Assembly: GCA_019308995.1 (NCBI GenBank)
Contig: JAFDHD010000010.1
Location: forward strand, 1-58,832
Direction of reading: 5' to 3'
DNA: 58,832 nt
Origin: Deltaproteobacteria bacterium
GTDB lineage: Bacteria; Desulfobacterota; Desulfarculia; Adiutricales; JAFDHD01
Part shown: piece after piece, positions 27,260 through 43,585 of the stretch
Layout of the letters: every line of letters starts with the position of its first letter
How positions within the stretch are numbered: the stretch's first letter is position 1
Notes under the pieces: generated by a model
Database searches by the model: none
Seen by the model: only the letters and a program-made list of their open reading frames with translations
What the model was told of the DNA's origin: nothing
Program-made: the position numbers and the translations under genes

Positions 27260-28765
27260 TCAGGGGACACTGGTTACAAACGGCTTTTTGTCTCGATGGC
27301 AGAGGATCTGGATGACGTGCCGTCCTGAAATAATGCACGGCGGGACGCCGCCGCCGGGCATGACCCACTGCCCGGCCATGTAGAAATCGGCCAGCCCGGG
27401 CAGTGTCCGCGGCACGGTGGTATTGATCGCCTCCACCGTTGGCAGCCAGCCCTCATAAGCGCCTTTGTAGTTCAAGGTATAGCGCCAGGTGGTGTAGGGC
27501 GTAGCCACATCGGTCACCTCCACCAGGCTCGAAATCCCGGGATATCGCCTCTCCAGGCGCTCAAGGGTCTCGGTCGTCAGGCGCTGCTTTTCCGCATCAT
27601 ATCGCGGGCGATCCTTGACCAACTCATTCCAATACTCCCACTGGGCTTCAAATGAAACCTGGACCACGGTCTTGCCCGGAGGAGCGAAGCTCGGGCTGTA
27701 GTTGAAGATACGGATGATGATTTCATTAACGGCTTGAGACCCTAGCTTGATCGGCTGTTTCAGCTTGATGAGGCTCAACCACGGTTCATCTGAAAATTCA
27801 CGGGCTATCCCGAAACTGACCATCACCATGGGACGCATGAGTTTCCAGTTTGAAAACCTGGCCCTGATGGTATCATCCTGATAGCGGCCGCCAAGCATCT
27901 TGAAGATGGTTCCATAGCCATCAGCGGCAGAGACCACCACATCAGCCCGGTGCTCGCGGCCGTCGGCCAGCCGCACCCCGACAGCTCGATCGTTTTGGAC
28001 AAGGATTTCTTCAACTTTGGCCTTGTAGGTCACCTGCCCGCCCAGGTCCTGGTAGCGCTTTTCAATGGCCTGCACAAAGCCGAGAGAGCCGTTTTCCAAC
28101 AAGCCAAGCTGCCTGTCAGCCAACAGCCCCCAGATCATAAGCACGAACCAGACCGGCACCTCGGGCAGGAACATGTTCACCAGAACCCAGCGCAGCCAGG
28201 GGTCTTTGACCTCCTGAACGTATTCAGCCATGGATCGCACATACTTTCCCCGGTAGTACTTAAGCAGGCCGCGCAACCCCCACATAAACCTGACCCGGTC
28301 CCAGAGGCCTGTCAGTTCAGGCGGCTTATTAAGGGCCGCCATGGTCATGTCCCGGCCCTGCATGGCACGGACCCCGGAGATCAGATCGGAAATGAAGGCA
28401 GCGTCGGGTTCGGAAAAATCTCTTAATTCGGCGGCCAGGCGGTCAAGGTCCGGTGTGATGTCCAGGCTCTGCTCACCGGCCTCATCAATGAAGCGGATAT
28501 AAGTAGTGAGGTCAAGGAAGTTGTTGGTCTGGATAGTTCCCAGCTCGCGGTAAAGTTCGTAAGTTGGCTGTCCCGACCTGTGACCCATCAGGAAGTGGAT
28601 GCCGCCGTCAATGAGAAAGCCCTTGCGTTTCCAGGCTGCGGCCACGCCTCCGGGCTTGGAGTGATGTTCGAAGATATGAGAACGATACCCGTTCATGCGG
28701 GCATAGCAGCCCGCGGACAGACCGGCCAGCCCGGCGCCGATGATGATCAGTGATTCAACAGGCAT
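27260..28765 (-). CDS. Phytoene-desaturase/CrtI-like FAD-dependent oxidoreductase
   Basis: This 501-residue flavoprotein is of the NAD(P)/FAD-dependent amine-oxidase/CrtI type. The N-terminus has the dinucleotide motif IIIGAGLAGLSAGCYARMNG and FEHHSKPGGVAAAWKRKGF, where CrtI and retinol-saturase proteins contact FAD. The C-terminus has ADFYMAGQWVMPGGGVPPC, the second FAD region. The substrate is unknown: carotenoid-like or other hydrophobic molecules are possible, but no phytoene synthase lies nearby. I chose the ATG at 28763-28765 (MPVESLIII), preceded by CAGGAA, instead of 24 bp further up, because a partial duplicate at 31305-31394 keeps this ATG and loses the other. It diverges from the phosphatase-fold gene. 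Confidence 0.83.
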   Translation of the reverse strand: MPVESLIIIGAGLAGLSAGCYARMNGYRSHIFEHHSKPGGVAAAWKRKGFLIDGGIHFLMGHRSGQPTYELYRELGTIQTNNFLDLTTYIRFIDEAGEQSLDITPDLDRLAAELRDFSEPDAAFISDLISGVRAMQGRDMTMAALNKPPELTGLWDRVRFMWGLRGLLKYYRGKYVRSMAEYVQEVKDPWLRWVLVNMFLPEVPVWFVLMIWGLLADRQLGLLENGSLGFVQAIEKRYQDLGGQVTYKAKVEEILVQNDRAVGVRLADGREHRADVVVSAADGYGTIFKMLGGRYQDDTIRARFSNWKLMRPMVMVSFGIAREFSDEPWLSLIKLKQPIKLGSQAVNEIIIRIFNYSPSFAPPGKTVVQVSFEAQWEYWNELVKDRPRYDAEKQRLTTETLERLERRYPGISSLVEVTDVATPYTTWRYTLNYKGAYEGWLPTVEAINTTVPRTLPGLADFYMAGQWVMPGGGVPPCIISGRHVIQILCHRDKKPFVTSVP

Positions 28766-28828
28766 TTCCTGGCTTTTTCCTTTTCGCATGAGATGCGCTC
28801 GTCAAGCTGAATGCTGTTAGCTTAAGAT
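28739..28828. repeat. 90-bp repeat, parent copy (5' end of FAD oxidoreductase gene)
   Basis: This segment covers the first nine codons and about 63 bp upstream of the FAD oxidoreductase gene. It recurs in the same orientation at 31305-31394 without gaps, differing at 11 of 90 positions, none within the nine codons. Confidence 0.85.
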
Positions 28829-29211
28829 TTAGGGTCTTCTCCAAATTAGTTGATGGTAATTAGGTTTAGTAGATAGATTTTTTACATCATTTAGCTCGTC
28901 GGAGGTGCACCGCCGGAGACGGACGGGGCGCTGGCAAAAATACCCTTCAAATGGATTTAGTCAGATAAATAATTTGTATTATAATAAATTATATTTTAAC
29001 ACGATGCTTTTTTTCTAACAAACTTACCAACTCTTTTGGAGAAGAACCTAAAATAACTTTTTTGTATAGACAAGCCAGACCATCTTAATAAACCCGGGCT
29101 AGCCCATTATTTATTTGACATTAAATTGATTTTTCTCCATGCTTTTGGAAGAATGAACCAGCGACACGGACGGACTTTAAAACGGAAACATTTAATTAGA
29201 AGGAGAGTTTA
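28766..29211. other. Divergent intergenic region
   Basis: This 446-bp region lies between the FAD oxidoreductase and the phosphatase-fold gene and must carry both promoters. The first 63 bp are duplicated at 31332-31394. The middle has a GC-rich patch (about 28903-28933) inside A/T-rich DNA. AGAAGGAGAG precedes the ATG at 29212. No RNA gene is recognised. Confidence 0.45.
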
Positions 29212-31140
29212 ATGAATCTACCGAAAAAAATAGCGGTTATTGGTCTGGATTGTGCTTTGCCACATCTAATTGAAAAGCATATTTCTGAAGGTTACCTGCC
29301 AACTTTTAAAAAGCTCATTGATGGAGGCGTACTAGCCGACAATTGCCTTGTTCCCTTTCCAACCATTACCCCGCCCAACTGGGCGACTATTGCCACTGGC
29401 GCCTGGGCCGGGACTCACGGCGTCACGGATTTCCACTATCAAAACCCGGATGAACCGCTGAACCAGGTTCCGCTGGAATCTTTCAGCAGTGAGCGTGTTA
29501 AAGCGGAAACGATCTGGAACGCCCTGGATAAAATTGGAAAGAAATGTGTCGTCTATAACTATCCCGGCGCTTGGCCGTCCAAGCTAAAAAACGGGATCAT
29601 GGTGGGCGGCTCAGGATTATCCATAGGAGAAACCCGTATTGGGTTGCCACGGCTGAATTCGCACTGCACCCTGTGCGGCAGCCAGCTAATTACCACCGGG
29701 CTGTATCCGTTCAGCATCCGCGGACAGTTCCAGAATGCGGAGGGTTGGGAAAACATGCCTGATGTGGGCGAAGACCCGCTGGACATGGAGGCCCCGCTTA
29801 CTTTCCCCGCGGCCATTAAAAAACCAGCCGCTACAACCTGGTATGTTCTGGCGCAGCAGAATGAGGACGATGAATATGATCGGATCACCCTGTCCCCGAC
29901 CAAGGATTATAACGACGCCTTTTGCACTCTGAAGGTCGGGGAGTGGAGCCCCAAAATCATGACTCGGTTTAAAATGCCGGATGGATCGGAGAAGGAGGCC
30001 TTCTTCCGGTGCAAGCTCATGGAGTTTTCCGATGATGCGGAGGATTTCCGGCTTCTTTTAAGTGACTTCTGCGCTACAGAAGGGTGGACCGCGCCGGCTG
30101 AGATCGCCAAGGAACTTGTGTTCGGAGAAGGCGTCTTCGGGCATTCCGGCGGCCTGCCGCAGCTTCTTCTCGGCTGGATTGACCTGGAAACCTATACTGA
30201 AATAAACGAGTTTCATGATCAATTCAACGGCGATGCCGTGACCACCTTACTAAAAGACCACGAATGGGACCTTTTTTACATGCACTCCCATCCGCCGGAC
30301 TGGCTATACCATGTCACCATAACGCAATTGGATGCCGAATTAACCAAGGATAAAGCGCTGTACGATCAGGCCTGGAAAGCGCATCTTAGAATCTACCAGA
30401 GCCAGGATAGGTTGATTGCCAGAATCATAGAAGCCGCGGGCCCGGACACTCTGGTCGTTTTGGTGTCCGACCATGGCGCCACACCGGATGGCCCAACGCT
30501 GAACCCCCAACAGGCGCTTGTTTCCGCAGGGTTAGCCAAAGTGAATATCGAGGCCGGTCAGGATACCGAGGTCGCGGCGGAACTGCCGGCGTTCGGGCGT
30601 CAATTCGGCATGAAGTTAGCCAAGGCCGGGCGCCAGACTATTGTGGTCGAGGAGTCCAAAGCTATTGCTCAACGGTCCTGCTATGTTTATGTCAACCTCA
30701 AGGGGCGCAATCCCGGTGGCATTGTCGAACCTGAGGATTACGAGGAAGTGCAGCAGCAGATTATTGACGCCCTGCTCACATACGTGGACCCTGAAACCGG
30801 CAAGCGCCCGGTGGCTCTCGCTCTCACCAAAAAGGACGCGCGCATTATCGGTCTTTACGGTGACAACATCGGGGACGTTGTCTATGCGATTAATCCCTGG
30901 TTCGGGGGCCAGCACGGCCCGATTCTGCCTACGGGTGAATGGGGGGTTGGCTCGTTAAAAGGACTGCTTTGTCTGCACGGCCCGGGAATTAAAAAGGGAG
31001 ACCGCCTCCAGCGCACCGCCTGGATCACGGACCTGGTCCCGACCCTTTGTTACATCATGAACTGGCCGCTGCCCGAGCAGGCCGAAGGCGCAGTTCTTTA
31101 CCAGACCTTTGAAAACCCGAATTTCCGGTATAAAGCGTAA
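29212..31140 (+). CDS. Alkaline-phosphatase-superfamily phosphodiesterase/nucleotide pyrophosphatase-like protein
   Basis: This is a 642-residue cytoplasmic-looking protein without a signal peptide. The start IAVIGLDCALPHLIEKH and the segment FPTITPPNWATIATGAWAG match type I phosphodiesterase/nucleotide pyrophosphatase enzymes; the Thr of PTITPP sits where the nucleophile normally is. Metal-ligand motifs include DLFYMHSHPPDWLYH and VVLVSDHGATPDG. Late metal sites are FGGQHGPILPTGEWG and LCLHGPG. Proteins of this AKP type cleave nucleotide, lipid or sugar phosphodiesters; the substrate here is unknown. AAGGAGAG precedes the ATG and a strong terminator follows, so it is a single-gene unit. Confidence 0.85.
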   Translation: MNLPKKIAVIGLDCALPHLIEKHISEGYLPTFKKLIDGGVLADNCLVPFPTITPPNWATIATGAWAGTHGVTDFHYQNPDEPLNQVPLESFSSERVKAETIWNALDKIGKKCVVYNYPGAWPSKLKNGIMVGGSGLSIGETRIGLPRLNSHCTLCGSQLITTGLYPFSIRGQFQNAEGWENMPDVGEDPLDMEAPLTFPAAIKKPAATTWYVLAQQNEDDEYDRITLSPTKDYNDAFCTLKVGEWSPKIMTRFKMPDGSEKEAFFRCKLMEFSDDAEDFRLLLSDFCATEGWTAPAEIAKELVFGEGVFGHSGGLPQLLLGWIDLETYTEINEFHDQFNGDAVTTLLKDHEWDLFYMHSHPPDWLYHVTITQLDAELTKDKALYDQAWKAHLRIYQSQDRLIARIIEAAGPDTLVVLVSDHGATPDGPTLNPQQALVSAGLAKVNIEAGQDTEVAAELPAFGRQFGMKLAKAGRQTIVVEESKAIAQRSCYVYVNLKGRNPGGIVEPEDYEEVQQQIIDALLTYVDPETGKRPVALALTKKDARIIGLYGDNIGDVVYAINPWFGGQHGPILPTGEWGVGSLKGLLCLHGPGIKKGDRLQRTAWITDLVPTLCYIMNWPLPEQAEGAVLYQTFENPNFRYKA

Positions 31141-31170
31141 CTAGTTAAAGTATATTGATTGCAGTGAAGC

Positions 31171-31200
31171 GCCCCGCCCCTCCAGGCGGGGCTTTTTTTT
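31171..31200 (+). terminator. Rho-independent terminator after the phosphatase-fold gene
   Basis: The stem gccccgcc / ggcggggc with a 6-base loop (cctcca) is followed directly by eight T residues, 31 bp after the stop codon. This is a canonical intrinsic terminator. Confidence 0.93.
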
Positions 31201-31675
31201 ATGCAGCGTTCTCTCTCTAATGGGACTAGGTTGAGCTTAGAGCGATTACTATATATATTTTCCTTTTAAGATAGATCGTTGTTTGAATGAGCGATAAAAA
31301 TGAAGATGATGATCAGTGATTCAACAGGCATTTCCCGGCTTTCTCCTTTTCGCAAGAGATGCGTCCGCCAAGCCGAGTGTTATTAACTTAAGATGTGTCA
31401 GGAAAAATCAAGGACAGGGTCTAAGACCAATACTCAGTCCCCTTTCGTAGCTATCACCTTAGCATCAGGCTGTTATTTGAGGCAAGTGTTTTAACTGCTT
31501 TGAAGCCTGATAACCGGAAAAGCGACTGATAAAAGGGAAGGGTTTGAGGCAGATAAACGTTCATTATTATCTTGACAGATGAAACACGGCGCGTTAAGAG
31601 TAACAATGTTATTGCAATTGTTTAAAATCCGATCGTCCTTAATTATTAATAAAAAATTAATTACGATAATTATAT
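31201..31675. other. Gap before the TetR gene
   Basis: Besides the FAD-oxidoreductase remnant (31305-31394), this gap holds no gene. The last 100 bp are very A/T-rich and probably contain the promoter and operator of the TetR-led cluster. No ribosome-binding site is strong near the ATG at 31676. Confidence 0.4.
31305..31394 (-). pseudogene. Remnant of a second FAD-oxidoreductase 5' end
   Basis: This 90-bp segment is 79/90 identical, ungapped, to 28739-28828. It keeps the nine starting codons (MPVESLIII) exactly, with the ribosome-binding region, then continues into unrelated DNA and stops after 21 codons. It is the leftover of a duplicated gene or of a duplication that spanned the phosphatase-fold gene, which lies between the two copies. 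Confidence 0.8.
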
Positions 31676-32317
31676 ATGGAGACGACCTTGAATAAAGTTC
31701 TAGATGCGTTCGGCCAGCCCAGCCCGGAGATTCAAAAAAAACTGGAAAAGGCCGTGCTTGAAACCTTCTCCACCGGCGACTTCCACCAGGCTAATATGCG
31801 CGCCATCGCTAAAAAGGCCGGGGTCAGCTTTGGAACAATCTATAAGTACTACCAGAGCAAGGAAAACCTTCTCTTCTCCTTTATTGATGAATGGCTGAGC
31901 GAATTGATCGAGCGCATGATAGACCACCTCCAGGGCCTCGAGGATATCAAGGAAAAACTAAGAAAGATCTTCTGGGTTCAGCTCGAATTCTATGAAAAAA
32001 ATCCGGATGTTGGCAAGATTATCATGATGACCGTCCCGCTAAAAACATGGATGACGGATGAAACCTACAAGCAAGAAAGAATGACAGAAATACTGCTCCG
32101 GGTTCTGAGAGAAGGCCAGCAAAAAGGCGTGCTGGACCCAGGAGTACCCACCCTCGTTTTGCTTGATGTCATGCATGCCATGGTAGCCCGCACCTTTACC
32201 ATGTGGATGTACCGCGGGCAAAAAGAAAGTCTGGCCGCCCAGGCCAGCCTGCTTTTCGAAATGGTCTGGAGGGCGATTTCCAATCCTGACCATGCTTCAG
32301 GAAGGAGTGAAACATGA
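31676..32317 (+). CDS. TetR/AcrR-family transcriptional regulator
   Basis: This 213-residue regulator has an N-terminal TetR helix-turn-helix at about residues 20-65 (LETFSTGDFHQANMRAIAKK, then AGVSFGTIYKYYQSKENLLF). A helical ligand domain follows (about residues 70-200) with a hydrophobic, Met-rich pocket region (KIIMMTVPLKTWM). It overlaps the next gene by 4 bp (ATGA) and heads the run of esterase, binding protein, hydrolase, SDR and CoA-ligase genes, so it is the obvious candidate regulator of them. The ligand may be an acyl-CoA or aromatic-CoA, as for many TetR proteins, but that is inference. Confidence 0.9.
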   Translation: METTLNKVLDAFGQPSPEIQKKLEKAVLETFSTGDFHQANMRAIAKKAGVSFGTIYKYYQSKENLLFSFIDEWLSELIERMIDHLQGLEDIKEKLRKIFWVQLEFYEKNPDVGKIIMMTVPLKTWMTDETYKQERMTEILLRVLREGQQKGVLDPGVPTLVLLDVMHAMVARTFTMWMYRGQKESLAAQASLLFEMVWRAISNPDHASGRSET

Positions 32318-33222
32318 CCGCTAGCCGTCTGATCGAATCTGAACTTAACAGTAACATTGTTCCAAGTCCGGTCAAGTACGCTGTCCTCCTGCCAGAGGGT
32401 TACGAGGAGTCAGAAGAAGATTTTCCGCTCCTTTTTTTCCTCCACGGCGGCAGGGGCGACCGGAGTTTTCTGACCCTGATGCAACCTCTCATCGAACGGC
32501 TCTGGAATCAAAATCGCCTGCCTAAAATGGTCGTTGTAACACCGAGCGTAACCCGCTCCATGTACATGGACTTTAGAGACGGGTCGCAGAAATGGGAACA
32601 GTTTATCATCAGCCCTTTTCTGGATCATTTGCGCCAGGATTATAAGGCCCGGTCTGATCGGCAGGGGACCTTAATTCTTGGGGTTTCCATGGGCGGCATG
32701 GGAGCGCTGCGCCTGGGACTTAAATATCCCGACCTCTTTGGGGGTCTGGCCGCACTCGAACCGGGCATCGAACCGATACTGGCCTTCAAGGACATCCAGG
32801 TTCAGGACCGGTTCTGGCGTTCGGACGAGATGTTTGAGACCATCTTTGGGAGACCCGTTGATGAGGAATACTGGGCCGCCAACAACCCGGCCAATATCGC
32901 AGCAAGCAATGCCGAAAAGATTAAATCCTCAAACCTTGCCATCTACCTGGAGTGCGGGGATGAAGACTACTTCTACCTATACAGGGGTACGGAGTTCTTG
33001 CACCGCATTTTATGGGATCATGAGATCCCGCACGAGTATCATCTGGTGCGGGGGGCCGACCACCTCGGCCGGACTCTTGGCCCGCGTTTTACCGAAGGGC
33101 TTGAGTTTTTAGCCAGGGTCGTCAATCCGCCTCCATCGTCTGACCCTGCCCTAGAAGAGCTTCACAAATTATTAGACCCTTTAAAGGAAAAGTTTTCATT
33201 GAAAACAACCATGAAAACTTAA
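32314..33222 (+). CDS. Alpha/beta-hydrolase esterase (esterase D/XynZ-like)
   Basis: This is a 302-residue esterase. The fold shows the oxyanion segment PLLFFLHGGRGDRSFL, the nucleophile elbow GVSMGGMGALRLGLKYPDLF (catalytic Ser in GVSMGG near residue 126), an acidic residue in LECGDEDYFYLY and a catalytic His in VRGADHLGRTL. It resembles esterase D / S-formylglutathione hydrolase-like enzymes that cut acyl esters. There is no signal peptide, so it acts inside the cell. It is coupled to the TetR gene (4-bp overlap) and lies 33 bp before a binding-protein gene. Confidence 0.87.
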   Translation: MTASRLIESELNSNIVPSPVKYAVLLPEGYEESEEDFPLLFFLHGGRGDRSFLTLMQPLIERLWNQNRLPKMVVVTPSVTRSMYMDFRDGSQKWEQFIISPFLDHLRQDYKARSDRQGTLILGVSMGGMGALRLGLKYPDLFGGLAALEPGIEPILAFKDIQVQDRFWRSDEMFETIFGRPVDEEYWAANNPANIAASNAEKIKSSNLAIYLECGDEDYFYLYRGTEFLHRILWDHEIPHEYHLVRGADHLGRTLGPRFTEGLEFLARVVNPPPSSDPALEELHKLLDPLKEKFSLKTTMKT

Positions 33223-33255
33223 CCATCCCCAGACCAATAAAGGAGGGAGATTCTC

Positions 33256-34863
33256 ATGATTAGCAGGATCAATAAAACGGGCGCGTTTTCAAGTATTGGG
33301 ATCATTCTTTTTTTCGCGCTGCTCCTGGGCTTCATTCCGGCGGCTTCGGCCGCGTCTGCGGCTGGCAATTCCGGTGATACCTTCAGGTGCGCCATCAGGA
33401 GCGACATCACCACCCTGGACCCCAGCCGGGCCGGCCGGGGAGCGACCGGTTTTGTGCTATTCTACCTGTCACAGGGCCTGGTGCACCCCAGCGCCATTAA
33501 CTGGCGGCCGTTGCCAAACCTGGCTGAATCCTGGGAAATGTTGAGCCCTAGGGCATGGAAATTTAATCTGCGCCAGGATGTCAAATTCCATAACGGGCAG
33601 CCTTTGACCGCAGCCGATGTACAGTTCTCCTTTTACCGGCAGATGGGCAAAATCAACCGCAAATTTCCCGGGGCGGCTAAAGCCAATTTCAGGCGAATGA
33701 TAGACAGGGTTGAAACACCTTCTGACTACACCGTAATCATTCATACCAAAAAACCAGAGGTCTCTCTTCTGTCCCTGGTCATCAGCGGCAGCGTCTATAT
33801 CGTACCCAAGCAATATGTTGAGACGGTCGGTGACAAGGCCTTTGGCAAGAAGCCCATAGGTACCGGGCCTTTTATATTTAAAGAGCGAAAGCCTGCGGAA
33901 TACATTTCTTTTGTGGCCAATGAGGACTACTGGAACGTGAAGGCCATCCCTGGCACCCTGAAGGCGGCCGAGATTAAAAAGGTCGTTTACCGCATCTTCC
34001 CTCAGTCCCAGACCGCGGTCGCGGCGCTCATAGCCGGTGAAGTTGACGGCGTCCAAAACCTATCTTACGACATCATCAGGGACCTCGAAAAAAAACCGGG
34101 CATCAATGTTTTCTATACCATACAGAATACCCCTTCCTACGTCATGATGAATTGGCTGAAACCAAAAGACGAAAAAACAGGCCGGTCCAACCCCTTTTAC
34201 GACGTCCGGGTGCGGCGGGCCTTGAACTACGCCCTTGATGTTGACACTCTTATCAAGAGCTACGGTACGGGTCGCGAATACAGGACCACCCTGGTAGGCC
34301 GAGGCTCGATCGGGTACAACCCCGACGTTCCCTTTTACAGCTACGATCCTGAAAAGGCTAAAAGGCTTTTGGCCGAGGCCGGATATCCCAAGGGCTTCAC
34401 CGCAAAGATGTACGTCCTGGCGGACCGTCCGCCCTTTCAGGACGCCATGACCCAGTACTGGCGGGACATCGGGGTGAAGGTTGATTATCAGATCACCACC
34501 CTGCCCGTGGTTATGCGCGCCTTATTCAGAAAAAAATTGGAAGGCATGGTCATCTGGATCGGGGGCCGCGGCTACGATACAACCAGCGGCTTTAACAAGG
34601 TCTACCTCAAAGGCAAAGGCACCTTCAGCCTCCATCCGCCCGACCAAAGGGTGGAGGCCTTAATTGACAGGCAGGAACAGGAGTTCGATGAGCAAAAGAG
34701 GGCTGAACTCATTCACAAGGTCACCCGAATAATCTGGGAAGACGCCTGGTTCGTTCCCCTATGGGAAGGCGTTGTCATGAAGGCCCTCCGAGCCGACTGG
34801 GAATATGAGCATCACCCGTGCGTCAATAGCTTTTCTCTTCCGTTTCTGAGGAAAAAGAAATAA
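33256..34863 (+). CDS. ABC transporter substrate-binding protein, peptide/nickel family (orphan)
   Basis: This is a 535-residue periplasmic binding protein of the SBP_bac_5 (DppA/OppA) family. A signal peptide ends in LLGFIPAASAASA. The mature part has the family's ITTLDPSRAGRGATG, LAESWEMLSPRAWKFNLRQD then VKFHNGQPLTAADVQFSF, IGTGPFIFKERKPAEYISF, and VRRALNYALDVDTLIKSYG. No permease or ATPase gene lies nearby, so it either uses a transporter encoded elsewhere or works as a sensor. AGGAGGGAG precedes the ATG. Its position between two hydrolase genes suggests capture of the same substrate that they degrade. Confidence 0.9.
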   Translation: MISRINKTGAFSSIGIILFFALLLGFIPAASAASAAGNSGDTFRCAIRSDITTLDPSRAGRGATGFVLFYLSQGLVHPSAINWRPLPNLAESWEMLSPRAWKFNLRQDVKFHNGQPLTAADVQFSFYRQMGKINRKFPGAAKANFRRMIDRVETPSDYTVIIHTKKPEVSLLSLVISGSVYIVPKQYVETVGDKAFGKKPIGTGPFIFKERKPAEYISFVANEDYWNVKAIPGTLKAAEIKKVVYRIFPQSQTAVAALIAGEVDGVQNLSYDIIRDLEKKPGINVFYTIQNTPSYVMMNWLKPKDEKTGRSNPFYDVRVRRALNYALDVDTLIKSYGTGREYRTTLVGRGSIGYNPDVPFYSYDPEKAKRLLAEAGYPKGFTAKMYVLADRPPFQDAMTQYWRDIGVKVDYQITTLPVVMRALFRKKLEGMVIWIGGRGYDTTSGFNKVYLKGKGTFSLHPPDQRVEALIDRQEQEFDEQKRAELIHKVTRIIWEDAWFVPLWEGVVMKALRADWEYEHHPCVNSFSLPFLRKKK

Positions 34864-34992
34864 CCGCATCATGGCTGAGGTCTATCACGACTCAAGGCAA
34901 ATCTACTTGACCCTTATGGATGACAGCCCTTGAATCCCCGACGGGGGCGCTGAGTTCTTGATAAAAAAAACACCTGGCAGGAGGTTCTGATC

Positions 34993-36657
34993 GTGACTAT
35001 TGCAAAGGAACAACGGACGGTTGAAAAACACAAGGTCTACATCACCGAAAGCCCTGATAAGCCGCTCATGGCGCTGATTCGAATGGCGGCAGGCGGCATG
35101 GGACTCTGGGACAAGGTCTGGCCCTTTCTGACCGAGTATTTCACCGTGGCCAGTATTGACCTGCCCGCGCCGGCCCTGGATAAATTCGATTCCACGAGCG
35201 AGCTTTTCAAGCATGTGGGCGGAAACGTGATTAAAGTCACCCAGGGGCTAGGGTATGATAAGTTTCACATCTTTGGGTGGACCGGCGGGGCCCAGGTGGC
35301 GCTGAGGTGCCTGGTTGATTTTCCGGATCATATTCTTTCCGCCATCCTCATGGGTGCGGTGGATCTCCCTGAGGAAAGAAGACCGCTCGAAAAATCGAGT
35401 GAGATACTCAAGGTCATTCTGGATCACGGCGACCTCGAGCTCTATACTTACTTCTGGCTGCTGTCCCAGCATACACCGGGTTATACCGAAGAACATTTCG
35501 ACCGCATCCAGGCCCTGGTGGACGCCCGCCTCAAGGCGGACCGAGGCCGGCTGGACACCCAGCGTGTCCTGAAGTGGATCAAGGCCATCCGGCAGCAGGT
35601 GGCCAGCGATGAAGAGCTGGCCGCCATAAACGTGCCCACGCTTCTGGTCGCGCCGGCCTTTGAAGCCTTTCCCCTGCTGGCGCACGTCAGAAGACTCCAG
35701 ACCAAGATCAAGACCTCGGAAATGGCCCTTATCCCGGGCGGCGGGTCCATGGTCCTGTCCGAAGCCCCGGATAAATTCATGGCCGCCGCCGGGAAATTCA
35801 TCCGGGCCGTGGCCAAGGGAAACCCGCCGCTGGCCAAACTCTCAGAAAAAAATACGGTCACCATCATCCAAAATAAAAAGCGGGTGGACGCCCTGGAGAA
35901 TGCCAGCCATGAGGCCCTCGTGTTCCTGCACGGCTGGCTCATGTCGCCCCAGATGTGGGCCCACGCCATGGCCGCCCTTAAAGGCAAGATGCGCTGCCTG
36001 GCCCTGTGGCAGCCGGGACATGGCAAATCCACCGCGCCGGATTATGACTTCACCATGGAGCAGTGGGTTGACTGGCTCATCGGCACGTTAGAGGCCATGA
36101 ATATTAAAAAGTTCGTGCTGGCCGGGCATTCCATGGGCGGGATGCTCACCCTGGCCTTCACCCTGAAATATCCTGAGAAAGTCAAGGGGATCGTCCTGGT
36201 TGACACCCAGGACCAGGCCTGGGAAACCGAAAAATCTGAAGAATTTCTGCAGGCGGTGGACACCGTCGCCGCAGCCTGGAGCGCTGACCTCGCCCCGCAG
36301 GTGGCAGACTTTCTCATGGGCAAGAATTTTCTGAAAAAAGAACCGGCCTGGGTCGGAACCTGGGCCAATGAGGTGGCCAAGTACGATCTGCCTGGAATCG
36401 CCAACCTTGGCCGGACCATCTGCCAGCGCGAAGACCTGTCAGGGCGAGTGGGCGAGATCAGGGTCCCGGCCCTAGTCGTGCACGGAACCATTGACGAGGC
36501 CATTGATATAGAGATAGGCCGGGCCATGGCCAAACGCATCCCTGGGGCCCGCTTTGAAGAGATGCCCGGCGCGGCTCACTGTCCGCCATGGGAGGCCCCG
36601 GAATTGTTTGCCGCAAAGCTACTCGATTTTTTAAAGACCAACAATTTCATCCAGTGA
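34993..36657 (+). CDS. Tandem alpha/beta-hydrolase fusion protein
   Basis: This 554-residue protein begins with GTG after AGGAGG. Residues 1 to about 280 form one alpha/beta-hydrolase domain whose elbow is HIFGWTGGAQVALRCLVDFP; the nucleophile place has Thr (GWTGG), not Ser, and a weak acid/His set, so it may be inactive or act as a ligand-binding half. Residues about 295-554 form a second, complete domain: ALVFLHGWLMSPQMWAHAMA, elbow LAGHSMGGMLTLAFTLKYPE, acidic VVHGTIDEAIDIEIG and His in PGAAHCPPWEAPE. It has no signal peptide. The two halves look related, as from an internal duplication. Function could be ester or C-C bond hydrolysis. Confidence 0.85.
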   Translation: MTIAKEQRTVEKHKVYITESPDKPLMALIRMAAGGMGLWDKVWPFLTEYFTVASIDLPAPALDKFDSTSELFKHVGGNVIKVTQGLGYDKFHIFGWTGGAQVALRCLVDFPDHILSAILMGAVDLPEERRPLEKSSEILKVILDHGDLELYTYFWLLSQHTPGYTEEHFDRIQALVDARLKADRGRLDTQRVLKWIKAIRQQVASDEELAAINVPTLLVAPAFEAFPLLAHVRRLQTKIKTSEMALIPGGGSMVLSEAPDKFMAAAGKFIRAVAKGNPPLAKLSEKNTVTIIQNKKRVDALENASHEALVFLHGWLMSPQMWAHAMAALKGKMRCLALWQPGHGKSTAPDYDFTMEQWVDWLIGTLEAMNIKKFVLAGHSMGGMLTLAFTLKYPEKVKGIVLVDTQDQAWETEKSEEFLQAVDTVAAAWSADLAPQVADFLMGKNFLKKEPAWVGTWANEVAKYDLPGIANLGRTICQREDLSGRVGEIRVPALVVHGTIDEAIDIEIGRAMAKRIPGARFEEMPGAAHCPPWEAPELFAAKLLDFLKTNNFIQ

Positions 36658-36668
36658 GGGAGGCTGCC

Positions 36669-36770
36669 TTGAGACGAAGTCATAAAAATTCACTGTATTT
36701 TACCCTGGCGATCCTCTTTGCCTTTGCCTTGACGATGCTTCCCTGTCAGTCCGGCCTGGTCAAGTCATAA
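36669..36770 (+). CDS. Possible 33-residue membrane microprotein
   Basis: A short frame starts with TTG at 36669 after GGGAGG and encodes RRSHKNSLYFTLAILFAFAL, then TMLPCQSGLVKS. It looks like a lipoprotein signal (basic end, hydrophobic run, Cys) that ends almost at once. It may be a real small membrane protein, a truncated lipoprotein gene, or chance. It lies between the hydrolase fusion and the SDR gene on the same strand. Confidence 0.35.
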   Translation: MRRSHKNSLYFTLAILFAFALTMLPCQSGLVKS

Positions 36771-36837
36771 GTAAGGTTTCCATAATTATCATGCACATGC
36801 GTCTTTAACCAGGCCGTAAAGAATGGAAGGTATAATC

Positions 36838-37758
36838 ATGAATATTCGTTTTGACAATAGAGTGGCCATCATCACCGGCGGGGGCCGGGGCGTCGGCAAG
36901 GCGCACGCCCTGCTGCTGGGTTCCCGGGGGGCAAAAGTCGTGGTCAACGACCTCGGCGGCTCCACCGACGGAAAGGGCGACGGGTCCGAGGCGCCTGCCC
37001 AGAAAGTCGTGGACGAGATTAAGGCCGCGGGAGGAGAAGCGGTCGTGAGTTTCAACAGCGTGGCCGACCCCCACGAGGCCGAGGCCATCGTCCAGACCGC
37101 ACTCGATCACTTTGGGACCGTGGATATCCTGATCAACTGCGCCGGAATCCTGCGAGACAAGACTTTTTTCAAGATGTCACTCGAAGATTTTGAATTTGTG
37201 CTCAAGATTCATCTCCTCGGTTCGATCTATGTCACCAAAGCCGCCTTCCCCGTCATGAGAGAAAAGGACTATGGCCGGATCATCATGACCGCATCGGCCG
37301 CGGGTTTATATGGCAACTTCGGGCAGACCAACTACAGTACCGCAAAATTGGGCCTGGTAGGCTTTATGAACACCCTGAAAGAGGAAGGGCAAAGATATAA
37401 CATCTGCATCAATACCATAGTTCCCTGGGCCTACAGCCGGCTGGGCCTCGGTATCTTCCCTGAGGAGGTTTTAAAATATTTGAGACCGGAGCTGGTGGCC
37501 GCCGCGGCCGCCTTTCTCTCGAGTGAACAATGCACCGCCTCAGGCGACATTATTATCGCCGGCCTGGGCTACTTTGCCAAGGCCCAGATGGTTGAAAGCC
37601 AAGGGGTCAGGTTTGATCCGTTCCAGGACGTAACACCCGAAATGCTCGCTGAGCGCTATCAAGATATCACCAACATGGAGAAGGCCAGACCCTTCACCAA
37701 CAGCAGCGAGGCCTTTTTAGCTGCGCTAGGCCCTTTAAACCCTGAGCTTGAAGATTAA
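36838..37758 (+). CDS. Short-chain dehydrogenase/reductase (MFE-2/hydroxyacyl-CoA type)
   Basis: This 306-residue SDR resembles the dehydrogenase part of peroxisomal multifunctional enzyme 2. It has the cofactor motif IITGGGRGVGKAHALLLGSR, NDLGG with a D-rich loop, the NCAG motif (ILINCAGILRDKTFFKMS), and catalytic Ser-Tyr-Lys (SAAGLYGNFGQTNYSTAK). Such enzymes oxidise 3-hydroxyacyl-CoA or similar secondary alcohols. The start at 36838 follows GGAAGG; an upstream in-frame ATG at 36823 is less likely. It is 60 bp upstream of the acyl-CoA ligase gene. Confidence 0.88.
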   Translation: MNIRFDNRVAIITGGGRGVGKAHALLLGSRGAKVVVNDLGGSTDGKGDGSEAPAQKVVDEIKAAGGEAVVSFNSVADPHEAEAIVQTALDHFGTVDILINCAGILRDKTFFKMSLEDFEFVLKIHLLGSIYVTKAAFPVMREKDYGRIIMTASAAGLYGNFGQTNYSTAKLGLVGFMNTLKEEGQRYNICINTIVPWAYSRLGLGIFPEEVLKYLRPELVAAAAAFLSSEQCTASGDIIIAGLGYFAKAQMVESQGVRFDPFQDVTPEMLAERYQDITNMEKARPFTNSSEAFLAALGPLNPELED

Positions 37759-37818
37759 TCAACATCGTGCAGGAGTTTATCGCCTTTTTCATGGACACTT
37801 AACCCGGGAGAGATAATC

Positions 37819-39375
37819 ATGGAAAAGTTTGACGCTCCCTTTATCGGCCTGACCGACTCTCTGGCCAGTCTGGCGAAATGGCAGCCCGACAGGATCGCGG
37901 TCGTTTGCGGAGACAAAAGGCTGACCTATCTGGAATTTAACCGGCAGGTCAGCAAGGTGGCCAACGGGCTGATCAGGCTGGGTATCAAGAAGGGAGACAA
38001 GGTTGGCGTCTACATGCTGAACAGCATCGAGGCGCTTCAAACCATTTACGGCGTGGTCAAGGCCGGCGGCACCGTGGTTCCGCTTTCATCAATGGTGCCC
38101 GGGGATGTGCTGGCCATGATGGTCAATGATTCTGATTCCCGCGCCCTGTTCGTCGAGTCAGGGCTCCTGAACGCCGTTATCAGTCCGGTCAAGGATCAAC
38201 TGAAGGGCGTTGAGGAAAACGGCTTCTTTTCCCTGGGCTTTGAGGCAGACGGGTGGAACGATTATACCCAGTGGATCAATGAGTGCTCGGACGAGGAGCC
38301 GGGCATTGAGACCAAACCTGACGATGACTTCAACATCGTTTACAGTTCCGGGACCACCGGCGTGCCCAAAGGCATCGTGCACACTAATCACTGCCGGTAT
38401 CTTTTTGCAATGGGCCTGGGTCTTGGCTTCAGGATTCATTCATATGCTAGGACTATCCTCACCACGCCGCTGTATACCAACGGCACCTGGATGACGCTGC
38501 TGCCCACCCTTTTGTTGGGCGGCACGGTGGTTATCATGCCTTCCTTTGACCCCAAGCTCTTCATGGAGCTGGTCCAAAAAGAGAGGTGCACGCACACCTT
38601 TATGGTGCCGACACAGTTTATCGTTATCATGGCCCACCCGGATTTTGAGAAGTATGATTTGAGCTCTATGGAGATGATGATCTCGGCCGCAGCTCCTTTG
38701 AGGGAGAATACCAAGCGCGAGATCATCCAGAAGTTCGGGAGCCGTCTCGCCGAACTTTACGGCTTGACCGAAGGGTTTGGCACTGTCCTGAACCCAGAGG
38801 AGATGGAAGGCAAAACAGGCTCAGTCGGCAAGCCCTTAACAGGCGGCGATATGCGCATCATTGATCAAAATGACCAGGAACTCCCCTGGGGTGAAGTCGG
38901 AGAGATCGTGGGATATCAAACCGGGCTCATGCGCGGCTATTACAAGCAGCCGGAAAAAACCGCAGAGTGCATCTGGAAAGATGAGCACGGCCGAACCTTT
39001 CTCAAGACCGGCGATGTGGGGCGCATAGATGAAAACGGCTTTCTTTACATCCTCGACCGGAAAAAGGACATGATCGTCTCTGGCGGCATAAATATCTTTG
39101 CCAGTGATATCGAGGAGATTATAGCCAAACATCCTGACGTTATGGACGTGGCTGTTATCGCCACCCCCCATGAGAAGTGGGGCGAGTCGCCTGTGGCCCT
39201 GATCATTGGCAAGCAAGGCGCGACCGCCTCAGAAGACGAGATCAAGGAATGGGCCAACAAGCAGTTAGCCAAGTATCAGAGATTAACTCTGGTTGAGTTT
39301 CGGAATGAATTTCCCAGGAACGCCTTAGGCAAGGTGCTCAAAAGGCAGCTCCGCGAGCCGTACTGGAAGGAGTGA
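37819..39375 (+). CDS. AMP-forming acyl-CoA synthetase
   Basis: This 518-residue ANL-family enzyme activates a carboxylic acid with ATP and CoA. Motifs are the P-loop YSSGTTGVPKGIVHTN (residues 175-190), LAELYGLTEGFG, the core TGDVGRIDENGFLYILDRKK, SGGINIFASDIEEI, and the C-terminal catalytic Lys in RNALGKVLKR. It is closest in pattern to long-chain or aryl-acid ligases; the acid cannot be read. GGGAGAG precedes the ATG. It is the last gene of the TetR-led cluster and would supply CoA esters to the SDR and to EtfAB-dependent oxidation. Confidence 0.92.
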   Translation: MEKFDAPFIGLTDSLASLAKWQPDRIAVVCGDKRLTYLEFNRQVSKVANGLIRLGIKKGDKVGVYMLNSIEALQTIYGVVKAGGTVVPLSSMVPGDVLAMMVNDSDSRALFVESGLLNAVISPVKDQLKGVEENGFFSLGFEADGWNDYTQWINECSDEEPGIETKPDDDFNIVYSSGTTGVPKGIVHTNHCRYLFAMGLGLGFRIHSYARTILTTPLYTNGTWMTLLPTLLLGGTVVIMPSFDPKLFMELVQKERCTHTFMVPTQFIVIMAHPDFEKYDLSSMEMMISAAAPLRENTKREIIQKFGSRLAELYGLTEGFGTVLNPEEMEGKTGSVGKPLTGGDMRIIDQNDQELPWGEVGEIVGYQTGLMRGYYKQPEKTAECIWKDEHGRTFLKTGDVGRIDENGFLYILDRKKDMIVSGGINIFASDIEEIIAKHPDVMDVAVIATPHEKWGESPVALIIGKQGATASEDEIKEWANKQLAKYQRLTLVEFRNEFPRNALGKVLKRQLREPYWKE

Positions 39376-39459
39376 AGTAATTTTCGGTCCAATACTCTCT
39401 GGTTAATGCCAGGCCCTAGTCACGGCTAGAAACCGCTGGGAAAGGGTTTTTTTAGGCCT

Positions 39460-40542
39460 TCATTCAGAAGCGGCTTCGGCTTCCAGGGCTTCTTCCCGCG
39501 GGGCTGGTGGAGTCGGTCTTTGAATGGCGTGCCGGAATATAAAGACGGCCACGGGCACGCCGAGGAAGACGCCCCAGAGGCCGAAGAGGCTGCCGCCGAT
39601 ATAAAGGATGATCAAGGTCAACACCGGGTTGATCCGCAGCACGGCGGAGACAATCCGCGGGTTGAGGATATAGGCCTCAATGAGATGAATGATGAAGATC
39701 ATTGTCAAGGCATAGAATACCAGCTTGATTCCCCCGCTGTTAAAGGCCAGGAGGAAGATGGGAACCGAGGAGATAAAGGTCCCTAGAACCGGTACCAGCC
39801 CCGCAAAAAAGACGATGACAGACAGCACGATAATCGGGTGGATATCAAGGATGTAGAGCCCCAGGGCGGTCAGACCTGTGTTTATACAGGCAATGAGGAT
39901 CTGGGCCTGAAAGACCTCACCTACCACCAAGGCAAACTGAATCACGCTCTCCACGGTTTCAATGTAAATGTCCCGCAGCCTGGTCTCCTGTAAGGACCTG
40001 GCCCGCTCCCGCAGCACGGGATAGTCAAAAAGGACCAGGAAGCTGAAAATAATACCCACCAGGAAGTAAGAGAAAAACGTGGTGGCCGAGTTGAAAAACT
40101 TGACGACAGTGGCAAGGATCGCCTCCTGATTGTACCCAACCAGGGCCTCAAAGGTCAGACTCTCCTTGATCCTGTTAAAAACGGGGGCTAAGCGCTCCTG
40201 CTGCGTGGCCAGCCGGTCCAGATAGCGCTGAAAGTTATCTATGGTTTCCGGAATCTGCTGGATAAAGAGCTTGGACTCAGAGCCCAGTTTGGGAACAATA
40301 TATACAGCCAAGGTCGTTATAATGAACAGAAACACGACATAAGTCACTACAATCAGGAGGCGGCGGTTCAGTCGGGTCTTGGATTCAAGCCAATGAGTAA
40401 TGTTGAAAAAAATAAAGCCGAGGATGAAGGTCAGAAAGAGCAGGCCGAAGAGTCTCCGGAGCAGAAAGAGCAGCACAAAGAAGGTCGTCCAGATGATGAC
40501 CCGCTTGTTGATACTGATAAATTTCTGGAGATCAATTTCCAT
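39460..40542 (-). CDS. AI-2E/PerM-family membrane transporter
   Basis: This is a membrane protein of about 360 residues with roughly eight hydrophobic segments. The N-terminus (VIIWTTFFVLLFLLRRLF, LTFILGFIFFNI) and C-terminal region (GLVPVLGTFISSVPIFLLAF; PVLTLIILYIGGSLFGLWG; FLGVPVAVFI) match the AI-2E/PerM (UPF0118) family. Members export or exchange small solutes and are often uncharacterised. I chose the ATG at 40540-40542 over an in-frame TTG at 40578; neither has a good ribosome-binding site. It is 42 bp downstream of the CapA-like gene on the same strand. Confidence 0.88.
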   Translation of the reverse strand: MEIDLQKFISINKRVIIWTTFFVLLFLLRRLFGLLFLTFILGFIFFNITHWLESKTRLNRRLLIVVTYVVFLFIITTLAVYIVPKLGSESKLFIQQIPETIDNFQRYLDRLATQQERLAPVFNRIKESLTFEALVGYNQEAILATVVKFFNSATTFFSYFLVGIIFSFLVLFDYPVLRERARSLQETRLRDIYIETVESVIQFALVVGEVFQAQILIACINTGLTALGLYILDIHPIIVLSVIVFFAGLVPVLGTFISSVPIFLLAFNSGGIKLVFYALTMIFIIHLIEAYILNPRIVSAVLRINPVLTLIILYIGGSLFGLWGVFLGVPVAVFIFRHAIQRPTPPAPREEALEAEAASE

Positions 40543-40584
40543 AGAATTAGCATAACACAAAAAATTATTCGGGCGCAATTGTAA

Positions 40585-41637
40585 TCAAGGCACGATCAAA
40601 CACCCTTCCGCGTCCACGGCGTTGGACTCGGGAAAATCCAGTCGGCCCAGTCTATGAATCAGCCTGGCGGCCTGACTTAAGGGGTCCAGCCTGGGGGGGT
40701 GTCCATAGACCTGGATAAAAGAAACAATACGACCGTCAGTCAGACGTCCGGTCAGGTCGAGTTCAGCCAGAAGCAGCGGGGCGTAACCGGCCGCTCCAGA
40801 AACATTAAACCTCATCATGGTGCAGAAATTACCCAGGGAGTAAGCGATAAGCCGCTTCTTGTAAACCTCCATCGCTCGCGGCACATGAGGGCCGTGGCCC
40901 AGAACCAGGTCCGCGCCGGCGTCAACCACGGCCCGGGCAAACTTCACCACCTCCCCCCGCTTCTCCCCGTGAAAAAACTCCATCTGCCGCGGGGTCCTGA
41001 CCGCCTCGCCCCCCTCTGCCCCGGCGTGCATCGAGACGATGACAATATCGTTTTCCCGGGCCAGATCGGCCACAATCCTTTTGGCCCTCTGGACGTCTAT
41101 GAGGTAGTGGCTGTGAAGATACGGCGCAAAAGCAACCATGACCACCCTGACTCCTCGAACCGTGATACTGGCCGTCACCCCGGGCGGACCTGAAAAGACG
41201 ATGCAATGCCGTTGCAGGGTCTTAATGGTCATTTTTTTGCCTTCCGGCCCGAAGTCATTGATATGATTATTGGCGATCGAGGCCATGTTGAATCCAGCTT
41301 GAGCCAGGAAACGGGCATAGCCCGGCGGGGTTCTAAAGGCGAAGCTTAACCCGGTCGTCGAGTCCTTTTTCGTGCGGCCTGCATCGCTTAACGTGCCTTC
41401 ATAATTAAAAAAAACTACATCGCTAGGCTTTAAAAACGCCTGACACGCCAAAAAAAGGCTGACACCTCCATCCTCCGGAAGCCGGCCCTCACTGCCCATC
41501 ATTACGTCACCCACAGCCGCAACCCTGATCACGTCATTGGCCTGGGCGGACGAAGCCAGAAGGAGGACGGCCAACACCAGGAACAACCCGCCAAACCCGG
41601 TCATCTCGCTGAGGCCGATATGTTTGAGAAATATCAT
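40585..41637 (-). CDS. CapA-family metallophosphatase-like protein
   Basis: This 350-residue protein matches the CapA/PgsA (YwtB) family, a metallophosphoesterase-like fold associated with capsule or poly-gamma-glutamate formation. A signal peptide or anchor lies at residues 12-34. Motifs are VAAVGDVMMGS, FFNYEGTLS, SIANNHINDFGPEG, VIVSMHAGAEGG, and LVLGHGPHVPRAM. No capsule synthase genes lie nearby, so a wall, envelope or other hydrolase role is equally possible. It ends 26 bp before the downstream aconitase-coding strand's gene and shares its direction. Confidence 0.9.
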   Translation of the reverse strand: MIFLKHIGLSEMTGFGGLFLVLAVLLLASSAQANDVIRVAAVGDVMMGSEGRLPEDGGVSLFLACQAFLKPSDVVFFNYEGTLSDAGRTKKDSTTGLSFAFRTPPGYARFLAQAGFNMASIANNHINDFGPEGKKMTIKTLQRHCIVFSGPPGVTASITVRGVRVVMVAFAPYLHSHYLIDVQRAKRIVADLARENDIVIVSMHAGAEGGEAVRTPRQMEFFHGEKRGEVVKFARAVVDAGADLVLGHGPHVPRAMEVYKKRLIAYSLGNFCTMMRFNVSGAAGYAPLLLAELDLTGRLTDGRIVSFIQVYGHPPRLDPLSQAARLIHRLGRLDFPESNAVDAEGCLIVP

Positions 41638-41662
41638 GTCACAAGGCCCTTTACCAAGGGCT

Positions 41663-43585
41663 TCAAGTTTCCTGGCGCATCAGGTTGAGCAACCCGCCTG
41701 CGGCCAGAATACGGCGCTGGCGTACAGAAGCGTCAAGGCTGGTCGCAATTTCTCTGCCTCTGACTTTAACCGGTATCTCCACGGCGCCGCTCAGGACCAT
41801 CTCCCGGATATCTTCGATGATCAGGACGTCACCTTCAGCGATCAGGTTATAATCGTCAGACCGCATAAAGGTCAGGGGGAGGATGCCATAATTTATCAGG
41901 TTTGCCTTGTGAATGCGCGCGAAGCTCTTGGCGAGCTTGACGGCCACGCCCAGGTAGCGAGGCGCCAGGGCCGCGTGTTCCCGTGAGGAGCCTTGACCGT
42001 AGTTTTCCCCGCCCACGACCGCAACCATCCCGTTTGCTTCGGCCCGCCGGGCAAAATCCGGTGAAAGGCCCTGGAAGACAAAACGGCTCATGGCCGGAAT
42101 GTTACTGCGCCAAGGCAGAATCTCGCTGCCAGCTGGCATGATATCATCCGTGGTGATGTTGTCTTTCACCTTGAGGATGACGCAGCCCTCAAGCCGGGCG
42201 GGCATCTCACTGAATTGAGGAAATGATTTAATGTTGGGACCCCGAAGAACCTCAACGCCTGTAGTATCTTCAAGCAACGGAAAAATGTTTCGATCATTGA
42301 TGATGAATTTTTCCGGGACAACAACCTTCGGGTAGTCGCCCAGGTCGCGCGGATCGGTGATCCGGCCGGTCAAGGCCGCGGCCGCCGCGGTTTCCGGCGA
42401 ACAAAGGTAAACCTGGTCGTCTCTGGTTCCGCTTCGACCCGGGAAGTTGCGGGTAAAGGTTCGCAGAGATATGACCCCGCTGGCCGGAGCCTGCCCAACC
42501 CCGATGCATCCCAGACAGCCGGGCTGCTGAATGCGGGCGCCAGCCTGGATGAGCTTCAGCAGGCCGCCGCTTGAAGTGATGTTTTCAAGGACCTGACGAC
42601 TCCCGGGATTGACCTCGAAGCTGACATTTTCATGGACCGTTCGGCCTTCAAGAATCATGGCGGCTGACATCAAGTCACGATACGACGAGTTGGCGCAGGA
42701 GCCGAGCAGAACCTGAGATACATCTCGACCGGCCACCGCCTTGACCGAAACCACGTTGTCCGGCGAGCTAGGGCAGGCGATCATGGGTTCGAGGCTGTCA
42801 AGATCCAGCGTAATTACCTGGTCGTAGCCCGCATCCCGGTCGGCCGACAGCGGAAGATAATCCCCCTCCCGGCCCTGAGCGCGAAGAAAAAGACGCGTCT
42901 TTTCATCGCTGGGCCAGACCGTAGTTGTCGCTCCCAGTTCGGTACCCAGGTTCGCCACGGTAGCCCGATCAGGGACTTCGAGGGACATGACCCCTGAACC
43001 AAAAAATTCGACGATGTATCCTCGCCCCCCCTTGACCGTCAGCCGGCGCAGAAGCTCAAGGATGATATCCCGGCCTGAAACCCAGTCAGACAACCTGCCT
43101 TTCAGACAGACCCCCAGGACTTGAGGGTAGGTTAGATAAAAAGGATGGCCGGCCATGGCCGCAGCCACATCCAGGCCTCCAGCCCCGATGGCCAGGGACC
43201 CCAGCCCGCCGATGGTAGGGGTGTGACTGTCTGAACCGAGCAGGGACTTGCCCGGGCGGCCAAAACGCTCCAGATGGACCTGGTGGCAGATACCGTTGCC
43301 CGGCCGGGAAAAGTAAACCCCGAATTTTCTGGCCGCAGATTGAAGAAAGATATGATCGTCAGAATTCTTAAAATCGGTCTGGAGAAGATTGTGATCCACG
43401 TAGCTGATGGAGAGTTCAGTCTTGACCCGTGCCAGGCCTATGGATTCAAAGGCCAGGTAAACCATGGTCCCGGTTGCGTCTTGGGTCAGGGTCTGGTCTA
43501 TCCTGATGCCAATTTCAGTCCCCTTCTTGGGTTGGCCTTCAACCAAGTGCATGTTCAGTAATTTTTCAGCCAAGGTCTTGCCCAT
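41663..43585 (-). CDS. Aconitate hydratase (short bacterial form)
   Basis: This is a 640-residue aconitase of the short form seen in anaerobes and thermophiles, interconverting citrate and isocitrate through a [4Fe-4S] cluster. Cluster Cys are in LLGSCANSSYRDL and QQPGCLGCIGVGQ. Other marks are YVDHNLLQTDFKNSDDHIFL, GSDSHTPTIGGLGSLAIGAG and the swivel domain's VKDNITTDDIMPAG and NYGQGSSREHAALAPRYLGV. A GAGGCGG site lies before the ATG. In a sulfate reducer or syntroph it would serve a TCA or glutamate pathway. Confidence 0.94.
   Translation of the reverse strand: MGKTLAEKLLNMHLVEGQPKKGTEIGIRIDQTLTQDATGTMVYLAFESIGLARVKTELSISYVDHNLLQTDFKNSDDHIFLQSAARKFGVYFSRPGNGICHQVHLERFGRPGKSLLGSDSHTPTIGGLGSLAIGAGGLDVAAAMAGHPFYLTYPQVLGVCLKGRLSDWVSGRDIILELLRRLTVKGGRGYIVEFFGSGVMSLEVPDRATVANLGTELGATTTVWPSDEKTRLFLRAQGREGDYLPLSADRDAGYDQVITLDLDSLEPMIACPSSPDNVVSVKAVAGRDVSQVLLGSCANSSYRDLMSAAMILEGRTVHENVSFEVNPGSRQVLENITSSGGLLKLIQAGARIQQPGCLGCIGVGQAPASGVISLRTFTRNFPGRSGTRDDQVYLCSPETAAAAALTGRITDPRDLGDYPKVVVPEKFIINDRNIFPLLEDTTGVEVLRGPNIKSFPQFSEMPARLEGCVILKVKDNITTDDIMPAGSEILPWRSNIPAMSRFVFQGLSPDFARRAEANGMVAVVGGENYGQGSSREHAALAPRYLGVAVKLAKSFARIHKANLINYGILPLTFMRSDDYNLIAEGDVLIIEDIREMVLSGAVEIPVKVRGREIATSLDASVRQRRILAAGGLLNLMRQET

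Follow-up and report, generated by a model that had tools for sequence, protein, structure and literature searches.

A TetR-led cluster with an orphan SBP_bac_5 receptor and a half-inactive double hydrolase: a predicted ester-catabolic module in a deltaproteobacterial genome

What does a gene for a solute receptor do in a cluster of catabolic enzyme genes that has no transporter genes? The question is raised by six + strand genes at 31676-39375 of a 58,832-nucleotide stretch of DNA (contig JAFDHD010000010.1 of a Deltaproteobacteria bacterium; the whole stretch is called the window here). They encode a TetR-family regulator, an esterase, a solute-binding protein (SBP) of the SBP_bac_5 family (SBP5 below), a tandem double hydrolase, a short-chain dehydrogenase/reductase (SDR) and an acyl-coenzyme A (CoA) ligase; open reading frames (ORFs) and Pfam matches confirm the families and the order given in an earlier note on this DNA. 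That note had also proposed a route in which a substrate is captured, hydrolysed, activated and oxidised. The locus is still best read as a TetR-controlled route that takes up an ester, hydrolyses it, activates the acid with CoA and oxidises a 3-hydroxyacyl-CoA (probability of about 0.55), although just one of the two active sites of the double hydrolase is intact. The cluster is a real yet individually modest catabolic cluster; what is notable is that the dead half of the double hydrolase is better conserved than the active half and that orphan SBP5 genes are coupled to catabolic genes in two separate lineages. The features concerned are as follows.

31171..31200, + strand: intrinsic terminator (stem of 8 G-C pairs, then T8) that ends the upstream phosphodiesterase unit and sets the cluster apart
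31676..32317, + strand: TetR-family regulator (PF00440, 2e-11; PF08359, TetR_C_4)
32314..33222, + strand: PF00756 esterase, cytoplasmic (2.5e-19)
33256..34863, + strand: SBP_bac_5 (DppA/OppA type) periplasmic binding protein (9e-77; signal peptide)
34993..36657, + strand: double hydrolase, tandem alpha/beta (Pfam cut-offs passed by the C-half only)
34993..35841, + strand: N-half of the double hydrolase, predicted pseudo-alpha/beta-hydrolase (alignment with the C-half and six single-domain homologues)
35878..36657, + strand: C-half of the double hydrolase, PcaD/esterase-like, catalytically intact (PF00561, 2e-35; TIGR02427 below cut-off)
36669..36770, + strand: 33-aa ORF resembling a stand-alone signal peptide, perhaps left over from a secreted esterase
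36838..37758, + strand: SDR, predicted (3R)-hydroxyacyl-CoA dehydrogenase type of MFE-2 (PDB matches; YxxxK intact)
37819..39375, + strand: acyl-CoA ligase, ANL superfamily (AMP-binding, 4e-82; PF00501/PF13193)

Under the preferred reading, the exported SBP5 protein would bind an ester-like or oligomeric solute and pass it to a Dpp/Opp-type ATP-binding cassette (ABC) permease whose genes lie elsewhere. Once in the cytoplasm, the solute would be cut at ester or lactone bonds by the PF00756 esterase and the C-domain of the double hydrolase, whose active sites are both intact and whose substrates are predicted; the dead N-domain probably serves as a structural or substrate-holding domain. The ligase would form an acyl-CoA from the released acid, the MFE-2-type SDR would turn (3R)-hydroxyacyl-CoA into 3-oxoacyl-CoA, and thiolysis would fall to a thiolase encoded outside the cluster. 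TetR most likely senses acyl-CoA, as FadR-type TetRs do, and acyl-CoA would release it. This reading draws on protein families and motifs; on co-directional genes behind a terminator, with the TetR and esterase genes overlapping; on a distant genome in which the order TetR, SBP5, hydrolase, double hydrolase, SDR returns; on TetR homologues that lead apparent methylmalonyl-CoA mutase clusters elsewhere in the phylum; on the excess of SBP5 genes over permease pairs in this genome, most clear orphans lying beside catabolic enzymes; and on precedents in which one permease is shared or is encoded apart from its receptor.

The PF00756 esterase has no signal peptide, its triad is intact (motifs GVSMGG, GDED and GADH), and it is related in the PDB to ferulic acid and other esterases. 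In the ligase, which is FadD13-like in the PDB, the motifs SSGTTGVPKG and TGD and the C-terminal GK lysine are all intact. The best PDB match of the SDR is 2et6 (4.9e-126), followed by 3oml and 1gz6; E-values against MFE-2 dehydrogenases run from 5e-126 to 4e-75, compared with 1e-44 for the next SDRs, and the alignment to MFE-2 domains covers 280 of the 306 residues, with the Ser-Tyr-Lys residues present (TASAAG...YSTAK). By family, the SDR is a predicted MFE-2-type (3R)-hydroxyacyl-CoA dehydrogenase; unlike MFE-2 itself (2et6, 3oml, 1gz6), it stands alone, without hydratase and SCP2 domains. Its start is better set at 36838, behind the ribosome-binding site GGAAGG.

The name 'double hydrolase' used in the earlier note needs qualifying. 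An alignment that also included the C-half and six single-domain homologues, taken from this genome and related ones, shows that the N-half has RM where most homologues hold the oxyanion HG, Thr97 at the position of the nucleophilic Ser, Glu224 at the Asp position and Ser252 at the His position (the last two being Gln and Ala, respectively, in the homologue at locus L016 of a distant metagenome-assembled genome (MAG), G143), whereas the C-half retains Ser380, Asp501 and His529. The protein is thus predicted to hold a single active site, the N-half being inactive. The C-half shares an intact triad with the 3-oxoadipate enol-lactonase PcaD but scores below the PcaD cut-off (TIGR02427, 171.8 bits vs. 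255.85), is fused to a dead homologous domain and belongs to a cluster without protocatechuate genes.

A scan of 84,980 genomes, whose reach is limited to close relatives because it matches exact short peptides, returned one double-hydrolase match, L016. No full-length double hydrolase was found in 60 relatives, in the other 62 genomes of the class or in the other four genomes of the order of G143, and the N-domain occurs in two of 395 phylum genomes, that of the window included. Between the window and L016, the N-half is 72% and the C-half 63% identical (68% for the whole protein). Third codon positions are 45% identical in both halves, i.e. saturated, which made dN/dS (the ratio of nonsynonymous to synonymous substitution rates) from YN00 unusable, and identities by codon position were compared in its place. 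Second positions are 85% identical in the N-half vs. 78% in the C-half, suggesting that the dead half is under purifying selection at least as strong as that on the active half. The dead domain is accordingly a testable oddity: what role does it have after the loss of all four catalytic features, despite being better conserved than its active partner? An AlphaFold2 model of the double hydrolase from a two-row alignment was unusable, with a pLDDT (predicted local distance difference test) of 38. Directly after the double hydrolase lies the 33-aa signal-peptide-like ORF, and at the same place in L016 (11669-12154) there is a truncated frame resembling a secreted esterase or depolymerase; a single secreted hydrolase, since lost, may have left both.

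The earlier note had proposed a search for this gene order in other genomes and would have taken its absence from relatives as a refutation. The outcome is divided: one distant MAG, G143, retains most of the order, and the genus-mate G001 does not. The G143 cluster (L016/L072) reads TetR, SBP5, secreted alpha/beta hydrolase, double hydrolase, thiolase, SDR, class III CoA-transferase, metallo-beta-lactamase-fold hydrolase and GntR, and the TetR (60% identity), the SDR (63%) and the double hydrolase are clear homologues of those in the window. In G001, the aconitase-CapA-AI2E flank is retained at 73-78% identity (L083) with the cluster absent beside it; the esterase orthologue (77%) lies on a 4.5 kb contig (L084) without other cluster genes, and orthologues of the phosphodiesterase and of a phytoene-desaturase-like protein are on other contigs (L085, L092). 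The L016 receptor is just 29% identical to the SBP of the window and the hydrolase beside it belongs to another family, so that the shared part is limited to TetR, double hydrolase and SDR. These three would form the stable core, with the receptor, the first esterase and the CoA-activating enzyme apparently swapped; the ligase in the window and the class III CoA-transferase in L016 are two solutions for the same activation step.

Within the window, the TetR and esterase genes share 4 bases (32314-32317), 33 bases lie between the esterase and SBP genes, and five of the six genes (TetR is the exception) have a ribosome-binding site ahead of them. Terminator-like sites inside the cluster number 15, compared with 11.1 +/- 3.6 in shuffles, i.e. 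no excess, and promoter-like sites are likewise not above chance. A single transcript is plausible; beyond the SBP gene it is predicted from the layout. The gap before the double hydrolase is 129 bases and that before the SDR is about 180 bases, and both could house promoters.

Three of these observations weigh against a single six-gene route, namely the absence of the cluster beside its conserved flank in the genus-mate, the different receptor and first hydrolase in L016, and the two wide gaps. The best-surviving alternative is a loose assembly in which TetR-esterase-SBP and double hydrolase-SDR-ligase are two adjacent units for different substrates, joined by the shuffling that is common around the SBP5 genes of this genome. 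The gaps fit such a division, as do the esterase orthologues, which in G001 stand apart from the other cluster genes and in G143 (69% identity) are among other genes on a contig other than that of the cluster, and so does the lack of orthology of the SBP and the esterase with their counterparts in L016. The same order of TetR, SBP5, hydrolase, double hydrolase and SDR in a distant MAG argues against it, and we consider two units improbable, if well short of negligible. The composition of the cluster agrees with that of the host genome, which rules out a recent transfer and implies that any transfer was old. An Rfam search of 26000-44000 gave no match.

The C-terminal domain of the TetR protein is FadR/YsiA-like, the likeness being confined to that domain, since the protein scores below the FadR equivalog cut-off (NF053878, 76 bits vs. 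200; 3e-21). Close homologues occur in 11 of the 395 phylum genomes, that of the window counted. Among the loci fetched from these 11 genomes, L063, L064, L065 and L069 have the TetR homologue ahead of apparent methylmalonyl-CoA mutase genes, as does L089 in the order-mate G005 (51% identity), and some add genes resembling MeaB, carboxyltransferase and succinyl-CoA synthetase (gene names at these loci were read by eye from N-terminal sequence, not from hidden Markov models). From this company we infer that the ligand is an acyl-CoA. As an observation in its own right, these homologues (51-61% identity), which lead propionyl-CoA pathway-like genes across several families of the phylum, possibly represent an undescribed TetR regulator of the methylmalonyl-CoA mutase/propionyl-CoA pathway. 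A tree, in which L016 carried the label Myxococcota, placed the window and L016 proteins near each other (support 88/92) on long branches and was not used. The TetR operator that the earlier note suggested predicting upstream of 31676 did not emerge: a 9-mer upstream of both the window and L016 TetR genes was rejected because it arises in 243 of 500 shuffles, and 11 upstream regions yielded one 5-base half-site pair common to three regions and no longer palindrome.

A narrower form of the preferred reading assigns the cluster to esters or oligoesters of (R)-3-hydroxy acids, with depolymerase-like hydrolysis, CoA activation, (3R)-specific oxidation and thiolysis, the product, propionyl-CoA or acetyl-CoA, being sensed by TetR. 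The window cluster has no acyl-CoA dehydrogenase, hydratase or thiolase gene (a thiolase gene is present in L016), and this form would need neither dehydrogenase nor hydratase; the SDR is of the (3R) type. The fit to a 3-hydroxy acid ester is speculative, and genes at other places in the genome may just as well supply the missing enzymes. Further points in its favour are a weak likeness to polyhydroxyalkanoate depolymerases (NF050058 and NF050089, below cut-off; 8ynv), the truncated secreted esterase-like frame in L016, and the apparent methylmalonyl-CoA mutase genes beside the TetR relatives. Every depolymerase match is far under its curated cut-off, however, the C-domain is nearer to PcaD lactonases and arylesterases, and MFE-2-type SDRs take many chain lengths. 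Overall, this specific substrate class appears doubtful, slightly more so than the division into two units.

The receptor belongs to the DppA/OppA/NikA superfamily (nearest solved chains, 5u4o and heme-binding protein A), i.e. to PF00496 SBP_bac_5 and not to the TctC (Bug) family of the tripartite tricarboxylate transporters (TTT), and no permease gene (DppB/C) lies within 5 kb. The earlier note was right that the gene is an orphan and found this odd; in this genome it is not. A PF00496 search gave 49 matches, corresponding to 45 distinct SBP5 genes in 3.78 Mb. Fourteen of these, the receptor gene of the cluster among them, are clear orphans, with 3 kb or more of sequence to either side and no DppB/C-type permease in a range of 5 kb; 15 have such a permease in that range and 16, at contig ends, are undecided; Dpp/Opp-type permease pairs number about 19, those on contigs C50 and C155 having no SBP5 match on their own contig. 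Catabolic enzyme genes lie within 3.5 kb of 12 of the 14 clear orphans. These neighbours include amidohydrolases, class III CoA-transferases, the phosphotriesterase family, MmgE/PrpD, fumarate-reductase-like flavoproteins, the old-yellow-enzyme family, molybdopterin oxidoreductase, carboxylesterases, AMP ligases, HpaB and a sulfatase (example SBP5 loci in the window genome, G000: L045, L047, L048, L049, L053, L059, L060, L061). An informal control of 54 genes from 16 other places in the genome, listing the 25 commonest families, held mostly housekeeping genes plus two CoA-transferases, one AMP ligase and one HpaB, in a genome that is rich in such enzymes as a whole. The missing transporter is a genome-wide habit and not a peculiarity of this locus. 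The nearest paralogues of the receptor in the same genome are on contigs C93 (51%) and C112 (46%). Upstream of the cluster lies a Type I phosphodiesterase-family gene (AlkP superfamily, 29212-31140), and a 29% homologue of it (L052, 2974-4959) is near the C93 paralogue, suggesting that phosphodiesterase and SBP are a recurring pair. The downstream neighbour of the cluster is a convergent AI-2E transporter gene.

It is quite unlikely that the SBP acts outside uptake, as a sensor or scavenging receptor, while the enzymes work on an ester that is diffusible or already inside the cell: regulatory roles are known for orphan SBPs in general and no permease is nearby, but the cluster has no gene for a membrane sensor partner, and among the genome's permease pairs are some (C50, C155) without an SBP5 gene of their own on the contig.

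Uptake through a permease encoded elsewhere has precedents. Five peptide SBPs of Pseudomonas aeruginosa, DppA1-A5, share one DppBCDF (PMC4206461), so that several SBP_bac_5 proteins serve one ABC permease; they are not a repertoire tied to catabolic enzyme genes as in the window genome. TphC is encoded within the tph catabolic operon and its permease, TpiBA, elsewhere (PMC8556258); the arrangement of a regulator and a lone periplasmic binding protein among catabolic genes is alike, whereas TphC is a TTT (TctC/Bug) protein accompanied by a dioxygenase and the window has an ABC-type SBP_bac_5 protein with hydrolases, CoA ligase and SDR. Bordetella pertussis has 76-79 Bug homologues vs. two tctAB sets, and some Bug genes are near catabolic operons in other bacteria (PMC5812351). 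The Bug expansion of Bordetella and Cupriavidus, with its dozens of orphan binding-protein genes that outnumber permeases, resembles the repertoire described here but involves another protein family. By gene content, gene order and the lack of an adjacent membrane subunit, the cluster has the predicted arrangement of an orphan-SBP catabolic operon of the TphC/Bug-like kind. To our knowledge, and as far as a narrow literature search goes, no operon with these six genes has been described; the same search, which says little, found nothing on orphan SBP_bac_5 proteins with catabolic genes.

In a survey of the class that scored the best 26 candidates per genome, first-look SBP5 candidates numbered 52 in the window genome and 35 in G001 (which has 32 matches), compared with 1-15 matches in every other genome of the class. 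G143 has 47 matches and its order-mates G108, G071 and G200 have 1-2. An SBP5 expansion lacking in their neighbours is thus common to the two lineages that have the cluster. The SBP5 contigs of G143 have the same tetranucleotide signature as its other contigs and its genus-mate G108, unlike G000 and G001, which makes contamination from the genus of the window an unlikely source; a contaminating near relative of G143 itself could still be the source, the MAG being rated 8% contaminated. In G143, coupling of SBP5 to catabolic genes was seen at L016, the one SBP5 neighbourhood annotated there. We tentatively propose that two unrelated lineages of one phylum each independently grew a Bug-like repertoire of transporter-less SBP_bac_5 proteins wired to catabolic modules and share this module, whose signature protein handles substrate with a conserved non-catalytic hydrolase domain. 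If so, uncultured bacteria have arrived at the orphan-receptor strategy of Bug/TTT proteins with binding proteins of the ABC type as well, and some 45 receptors in one genome would become signposts to uncharacterised catabolic routes.

The suggestion in the earlier note that the products of the cluster feed EtfAB found no support: 22 kb separate the cluster from the EtfAB genes (7934-9719), which lie on the opposite strand next to a Liv-type ABC transporter, and an acyl-CoA dehydrogenase is lacking from the cluster. Divergent from EtfAB, at 5951-7855, is a gene in which an acetyl-CoA hydrolase/transferase is fused to a C-terminal GNAT acetyltransferase domain. Elsewhere in the window (54851-56714), an archease gene adjoins that of the RtcB RNA ligase, downstream of the dnaA-dnaN-gyrB-gyrA region.

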